Source: Roseovarius sp. (GTDB taxonomy: Bacteria > Pseudomonadota > Alphaproteobacteria > Rhodobacterales > Rhodobacteraceae). Taken from it: a stretch of DNA of 64,000 nucleotides. The stretch covers positions 806,001 to 870,000 of the forward strand of contig JAOSKR010000002.1 of assembly GCA_027493545.1 (NCBI GenBank), read 5' to 3'. Below, in pieces: positions 22,151 to 32,078 of the stretch. Position 1 is the first letter of the stretch; every line of letters begins with the position of its first letter. The translations under genes were made by a program, and so were the position numbers. The notes beneath the pieces were generated by a model. It was given only the letters and a program-made list of their open reading frames with translations. It was not told the origin of the DNA and made no database searches.

Positions 22151-24849
<2,699 letters not shown>

Positions 24850-24904: not shown

Positions 24905-24988
24905 CGCTGACTTAGCGGCGCCGCCCGCCCATGTCCACAGCCTCGACATTGCGCCCCGGCCGTGTACGGCCGCGGGCGCCTGGCCGCT

Positions 24989-26060
<1,072 letters not shown>

Positions 26061-26111
26061 GAAATTCGGTTCCTTATTTCACACCCTGTACCGGCCGTCC
26101 ATCGCCGCTTT

Positions 26112-26126
26112 GTTCACGTGTTGTTC
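26112..26126. promoter_or_regulatory. alphaproteobacterial LexA (SOS) box of recA
   Basis: GTTC-ACGTGTT-GTTC, an exact match to the direct repeat GTTC-N7-GTTC bound by LexA in Rhodobacter and other alphaproteobacteria. It lies directly downstream of the inferred recA -10 hexamer, so LexA bound there would block initiation. This is established for the lineage; the match itself is seen in the sequence. Confidence 0.9.
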
Positions 26127-26127
26127 C

Positions 26128-26156
26128 CTTATGACGACCGGTGGGGAACATTTCAA
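26128..26156 (-). promoter_or_regulatory. recA promoter
   Basis: On the minus strand: TTGAAA, 17 bp, CATAAG. The -35 is five of six to consensus and spacing is ideal; the -10 is four of six. The SOS box begins 1 bp after the -10, consistent with repression at the start site. The recA ATG is about 67 bp downstream of the -10. Confidence 0.7.
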
Positions 26157-26248
26157 GAAAATTGTTCGCGTCCCACTTTTGCCGGCAAGGGTTAAGGAGT
26201 AGTTTACGGCTGGGCGACGATTTCGACTGGTGGCGGGGCCGTGACGGC

Positions 26249-26878
26249 ATGCTGGTGTTCTCGAAGGAAAAACTGGTATTCCTGTCGGTACCCAAGACCG
26301 GCACCACAGCCTGGCAGGCGGCACTGGAACACCGCGCCAGCCTGATCCTGCGCGACCCGCCCGAGCTCAAGCACGCGCCGGTCTTCCGCTACAACCGTTT
26401 CTTCCGCCCGATGCTGGAACGCTTTCTGGGCGAGGGGCTGACGGTGCTGGCGGTGATGCGCGAGCCGGTCGACTGGCTGGGCAGCTGGTATCGCTACCGG
26501 CGGCGGCCGGCGCTGGCCGGCCAGCCTGCCGGCACCCACCAGATCGGCTTCGACGAGTTCGTGCTGGCCTACATGCGCGGCAAGCGGCCGGCCTTTGCCA
26601 ATGTCGGCTCGCAGGCCAAGTTCCTGGAGCCGCAGAAGAACGGCACCGCGGTCACGCATCTCTTTCGCTACGACGATCAGGCCGGGCTGCGCGACTTCCT
26701 GGAAGCGCGGCTGGGGGCCGGGATCGTGACCGAGCGGCTCAACGCCTCGCCGGGCGCGCCGCCGGCGCTCTCGGCCGAGGTGGCGGCGCGACTGCGGCAT
26801 GAATGCGCCGCGGAATTCGCGCTCTATGAGGGCATCGGCGCAAACGGCGCCTACCGCCCGCTGCCGGTCTCCGGCTAG
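26249..26878 (+). CDS. sulfotransferase-like protein (often mislabelled gamma-glutamyl kinase)
   Basis: About 209 aa from the ATG at 26249 (MLVFSKEKLVFLSVPKTGTTAWQAAL). The PKTGTT motif matches the 5'-phosphosulfate loop of PAPS-dependent sulfotransferases, and VMREPVDWLGSWYRYRR matches the region that binds the 3'-phosphate. The sugar or protein acceptor is unknown. Rhodobacteraceae annotations often call this protein gamma-glutamyl kinase, which the motifs do not support. The track start at 26141 reads through the recA promoter and is unlikely. Convergent with cckA. Confidence 0.78.
   Translation: MLVFSKEKLVFLSVPKTGTTAWQAALEHRASLILRDPPELKHAPVFRYNRFFRPMLERFLGEGLTVLAVMREPVDWLGSWYRYRRRPALAGQPAGTHQIGFDEFVLAYMRGKRPAFANVGSQAKFLEPQKNGTAVTHLFRYDDQAGLRDFLEARLGAGIVTERLNASPGAPPALSAEVAARLRHECAAEFALYEGIGANGAYRPLPVSG

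Positions 26879-30562: not shown

Positions 30563-32078
<1,516 letters not shown>

Follow-up and report, generated by a model that had tools for sequence, protein, structure and literature searches.

The direct repeat just downstream of the recA −10 element in this Roseovarius genome can, with very little doubt, be read as the canonical alphaproteobacterial LexA operator of recA, judging from its sequence and its placement in orthologous promoters. As an operator it is ordinary and known in kind. The original prediction, which had called it the SOS box of recA, is supported by its conserved place in orthologous recA promoters.

The recA box and its conservation

Within the window (the whole 64,000-nucleotide stretch of DNA analysed), GTTCACGTGTTGTTC at 26112-26126 of the forward strand forms an exact GTTC-N7-GTTC direct repeat, which on the recA strand reads GAACAACACGTGAAC (GAAC-AACACGT-GAAC, 26126-26112). 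This exact repeat with 7-bp spacing (GTTC-ACGTGTT-GTTC), to which the original prediction had drawn attention, agrees with the published alphaproteobacterial LexA motif, which is the same direct repeat (PMC3091678, PMC12700426, PMC8565304). The predicted promoter, TTGAAA-N17-CATAAG with the box 1 bp from the −10 element, was likewise recovered in this genome at 26156-26112; on the recA strand, the −35 element, 17 bp, the −10 element and a single base (26127) lead into the box, and the recA ATG follows 51 bp downstream of it (Table 1).

Table 1. Features of the recA promoter region and its flanks, in positions of the window
Feature	Position	Strand	Basis or remark
recA reading frame, ATG 26060-26058	24912..26060	-	PF00154, E 9.2e-144
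Ribosome-binding site AAGGAA of recA	26070..26075	-	
Predicted LexA operator (SOS box) of recA	26112..26126	-	exact direct repeat; conserved place and orientation in orthologues
−10 element CATAAG of recA promoter	26128..26133	-	CATA conserved in 49 aligned promoters
17-bp spacer starting TGTTC; GTTC-N7-GTCG at 26149-26135	26134..26150	-	decayed copy of conserved LexA-like GTTC-N7-GNTC / GTCY element
TTTC-TTGAAAT-GTTC, one-mismatch LexA-like repeat across −35	26146..26160	-	maintained in genus only
−35 element TTGAAA of recA promoter	26151..26156	-	TTG invariant (49/49), AAA nearly so
Divergent sulfotransferase-like gene	26249..26878	+	tblastn homologues adjoining recA in 41 loci

The window holds two exact matches to GTTC-N7-GTTC against 1.45 expected, and the second (25954-25968), located within the recA coding sequence, is probably a chance occurrence. 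The genome-wide scan to which the original prediction had pointed (3.33 Mb) returned 65 exact matches compared with 37 for a reversed-pattern control. This enrichment is modest, and a single exact motif alone is therefore weak evidence. At the genome rate, 0.0037 matches would be expected in the 188-bp intergenic region between recA and the divergent sulfotransferase-like gene (start codon to start codon). Neither the E. coli-type (CTGT-N8-ACAG) nor the Gram-positive-type (GAAC-N4-GTTC) LexA box had a match in the window. The statement that ssb (ATG 18063) lacks a box also held, with none at up to one mismatch nearby, the nearest one-mismatch copy about 600 bp away and no good profile match.

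We compared recA upstream regions from 21 genomes of the genus, that of the window among them, and from 28 other Rhodobacterales loci. The exact box occupies the same place and orientation in 21/21 of the former and 23/28 of the latter. Of the five exceptions, four differ from it by a single base; the box of one Silicimonas MAG, like that of four Rhodobacter/Pseudorhodobacter-like loci, is degenerate and has at most one exact half-site, and these five Rhodobacterales loci count against the operator reading. No further exact matches were found elsewhere in the 16 kb of recA upstream DNA, and shuffled sequences matched at a rate of about 0.001 per locus. Across the genus, the recA box has the consensus GAACAAGAGGTGAAC; the copy in the window is a variant form. 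Beyond Rhodobacterales, the repeat accompanies many of the recA genes in the named set, at other distances and in either orientation.

LexA and its targets in this genome

The genome encodes a single lexA, whose product combines the LexA_DNA_bind (PF01726) and Peptidase_S24 (PF00717) domains in one protein. Upstream of lexA lies GAACAAGCATAGAAC, ending about 35 bp before the start codon; an equivalent box was found in 18/18 same-genus lexA genes, and among more distant lexA genes the same box recurs in six of seven, the seventh carrying it as GTTC-N7-GTTC. Exact boxes also stand just upstream of mmcB (PF06319) and imuB (PF00817; imuB start recognised by eye). The profile search detected no good LexA site at uvrA, a classical LexA target in R. 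sphaeroides, and this too counts against the operator reading.

Two more genes, both possible further LexA targets, follow an exact SOS box: an adenine-methylase-like gene of the MT-A70 type at a distance of 26 bp (box at G000:C4:57237-57251) and a uvrD-like helicase gene at about 33 bp (box at C1:238777-238791). Outside the window, a stand-alone ORF (C2:43067-43350, minus strand) that resembles the C-terminal OB-fold part of DnaE2 (loci L068, L254-L263) has the SOS box GTTCTATTTTTGTTC 2-3 bp upstream of its ATG, and its mRNA is possibly leaderless. Nine genomes sampled from the genus apparently have the homologue as a short ORF, eight of them with an exact box, and in three other members of the genus the OB-fold domain lies within a full-length frame of more than 1100 aa.

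A conserved element in the promoter spacer

In an ungapped alignment of the 49 Rhodobacterales recA promoters, the −35 element and the CATA of the −10 element were conserved, the last two −10 bases were not, and the bases between the −10 element and the box varied freely. The −10 element and the box are separated by 1 bp in this genome, a gap peculiar to it; most of the genus has 5 bp, and other genera range from −2 to 10 bp (usually 5 bp); the 1-bp gap, which had been presented as an exact alphaproteobacterial spacing, is therefore not a lineage rule. An inverted repeat around the −35 element (GAACA-N12-TGTTC), present in this genome, was considered and set aside, as by eye it is not maintained across relatives.

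The alignment further revealed that the spacer is nearly invariant at TGTTC and TTTTG, which together read GTTC-N7-G (loci L031-L051, L079-L106). Within TGTTC, the T, G and C are present in 49/49 promoters and the two middle T's in 48 and 47, and the following G is found in 47/49. Standard promoter theory offers no explanation for this element. It is retained in loci that lack the divergent sulfotransferase gene, and an overlapping divergent promoter therefore fails to account for its conservation as well. The GTTC-N7-G core pattern occurs at recA only, and at most once per genome. Its use as a marker of a wider regulon was accordingly rejected, the exact pattern being found at recA alone.

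A possible account is that the spacer element is a weak second LexA site. More broadly, the recA promoter may carry more than one LexA site, with the perfect box accompanied by one or two degenerate sites of a GTTC ladder (TTTC-N7-GTTC-N7-GNTC/GTCY) over the −35 element and spacer, giving graded repression or activation at low LexA, as reported for R. sphaeroides. In support of this notion, spacers normally drift, and yet TGTTC and the G seven bases on are near invariant, the core is specific to recA, and the element persists where the divergent gene is absent. When scored with a LexA profile built from the lexA and small-ORF boxes only (recA excluded), 33 of the 49 spacer copies ranked within the top 0.1% of DNA from the genus, and one relative (L084) carries GTAC-N7-GTTC. 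However, in a control that kept GTTC and shuffled the other 11 bases, 11% of sequences still reached the median score, and an exact GTTC second half-site occurs only in L084. The distance between the spacer element and the main box also varies, which makes a fixed cooperative contact unlikely. In addition, the window's own copy, GTTCCCCACCGGTCG, is decayed and scores poorly against the profile, while in most relatives the element reads as a weak LexA site. Taken together, we regard a multi-site recA promoter as possible, if doubtful.

The divergent gene, the recA frame and the promoter class

In 41 Rhodobacterales loci the sulfotransferase-like gene sits between recA and cckA, divergent from the former; its product had no Pfam match. 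In many loci the tblastn homology sets in only at the listed ORF's residue 37, which makes ATG 26249 the most likely start, in place of GTG 26141. This conserved divergent arrangement, with the sulfotransferase-like ATG about 122 bp from the box, raises the question of whether the box controls this gene, either in addition to recA or in its place. We consider such control unlikely: loci with cckA upstream instead still hold the box or a remnant of it together with the promoter core, and the position of the box tracks the recA promoter rather than the divergent start.

The recA frame itself is shifted near 25200 (25190-25205) by an extra base in CTCGGACC, with the C-terminus continuing in another frame through about 24990. 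This break counts against the operator reading, although other housekeeping genes are likewise broken: alaS (about 23200-23700) and guaB (about 31750-31800) in the window, and uvrA (G000:C2:325460) and imuB (L067, about 2170) elsewhere. Since these genes are broken in the same way, the frameshifts are probably assembly indel errors rather than a loss of recA.

Reading the conserved core as an RpoH-type heat-shock promoter, (C)TTGAAA-N14-CYCATA, and not as a housekeeping one would place recA under two stress regulators; we consider this very improbable. A C precedes TTG in 33/49 promoters, the A at −12 is invariant and the last two −10 positions lack conservation, all of which would fit. Compared with the R. 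sphaeroides RpoH logos (PMC3441632), TTG and A-12 are present, but the recA promoters do not conserve the T at −9 that is described as critical for RpoHI, and the T at −13 favoured by RpoHII is replaced by C. Finally, that the recA box is a chance match, as the modest genomic enrichment of the bare motif might suggest, is refuted by the exact box at the same place in 44/49 orthologous promoters, which marks the box as genuine and leaves chance with practically no probability.

A putative small membrane protein behind recG

Outside the window, two boxes precede a 40-aa ORF (G000:C2:602697-602816, plus strand) directly behind recG. Relatives of the 40-aa protein (loci L063, L159-L180, L221-L250; alignment A1) were found in 210/246 Rhodobacterales genomes and 91/101 genera, nearly always in single copy; in a class-wide sample of 240 genomes the protein was confined to the three sampled members of the window's own family. 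GTTC-N7-GTTC lies upstream of the ORF in 22/22 same-genus loci and in 52/52 sampled locus records, some of which represent the same genome twice, and recG adjoins it in all 52 records. The promoter is near invariant, reading GTTC-RCAAAT-GTTC-TYAAAAA-GTTC-TTTAC ... ATGAGAACAAAGnnGCAAC.

No fitting Pfam or NCBIfam family was found for the 40-aa protein, nor any copy on phages or plasmids. A limited literature search returned no paper on it, though one may exist. Its single hydrophobic stretch (residues 16-34) suggests a small membrane protein. By analogy with SulA, SidA, YneA or TisB, our guess is that it might act as an SOS checkpoint effector. We tentatively propose that the recA box belongs to an SOS regulon of the Rhodobacterales in which the most tightly built promoter is the one driving this undescribed single-helix membrane protein, with its near-invariant GTTC half-site ladder and GAACN7CAAC. 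In this view, the protein would serve as the SOS checkpoint effector of the order, either a division inhibitor or a TisB-like membrane peptide, and recA would retain the same multi-half-site architecture in decayed form.

Proposed repression of recA

For the recA operator, we infer the following course of events. A LexA dimer would bind GAAC-N7-GAAC just downstream of the −10 element, over the presumed transcription start; if the start lies about 7 bp after the −10 element, the box would span about −5 to +10. In undamaged cells, LexA would hold recA low, and the step that it hinders is most likely open-complex progress or promoter clearance. Upon DNA damage, RecA filaments would lead to self-cleavage of LexA, which would then leave the operator, and its release would induce the regulon, recA and lexA included. 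Afterwards, LexA would shut off lexA and recA again.

As the box covers the presumed start site, LexA may act by holding RNA polymerase at the promoter instead of keeping it off, and a block of open-complex progress or clearance seems preferable to simple occlusion. In an R. sphaeroides recA study, LexA and RNA polymerase were reportedly bound together, with LexA hindering clearance. By its title, that study, cited in PMC8565304 and PMC6182141, presents LexA as both optimising and repressing recA transcription.

Relation to known SOS systems

The SOS boxes of recA and lexA in R. sphaeroides (GTTC-N7-GTTC / GAAC-N7-GAAC) share with the system predicted here the half-sites, the 7-bp spacing, recA as a target and LexA autoregulation. 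In contrast to this genome, the Rhodobacter-like loci that we examined have a box that is degenerate in one half-site, and the −10-to-box distance also differs from that of R. sphaeroides. The LexA regulon of Caulobacter (GTTCN7GTTC, PMC12700426) uses the same motif and includes recA and the imu genes as targets, whereas a SidA-type division inhibitor was not found by name in this genome, and a different, predicted small membrane protein stands under the box here. In Dinoroseobacter shibae, a relative with the same motif, a LexA site at recA is predicted and both recA and lexA are listed as targets, and the predictions extend to motility, pilus and gene-transfer-agent targets (PMC6473078).

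Our analysis bears out the classical direct-repeat LexA code for the SOS circuit of this lineage. What it adds is the conservation of the promoter core, brought out by an ungapped alignment of 49 Rhodobacterales recA promoters that exposes a conserved spacer element, and a small protein reached via the box. That 40-aa protein, widely conserved and missed by existing family libraries, is a candidate SOS checkpoint for this large order of marine bacteria.
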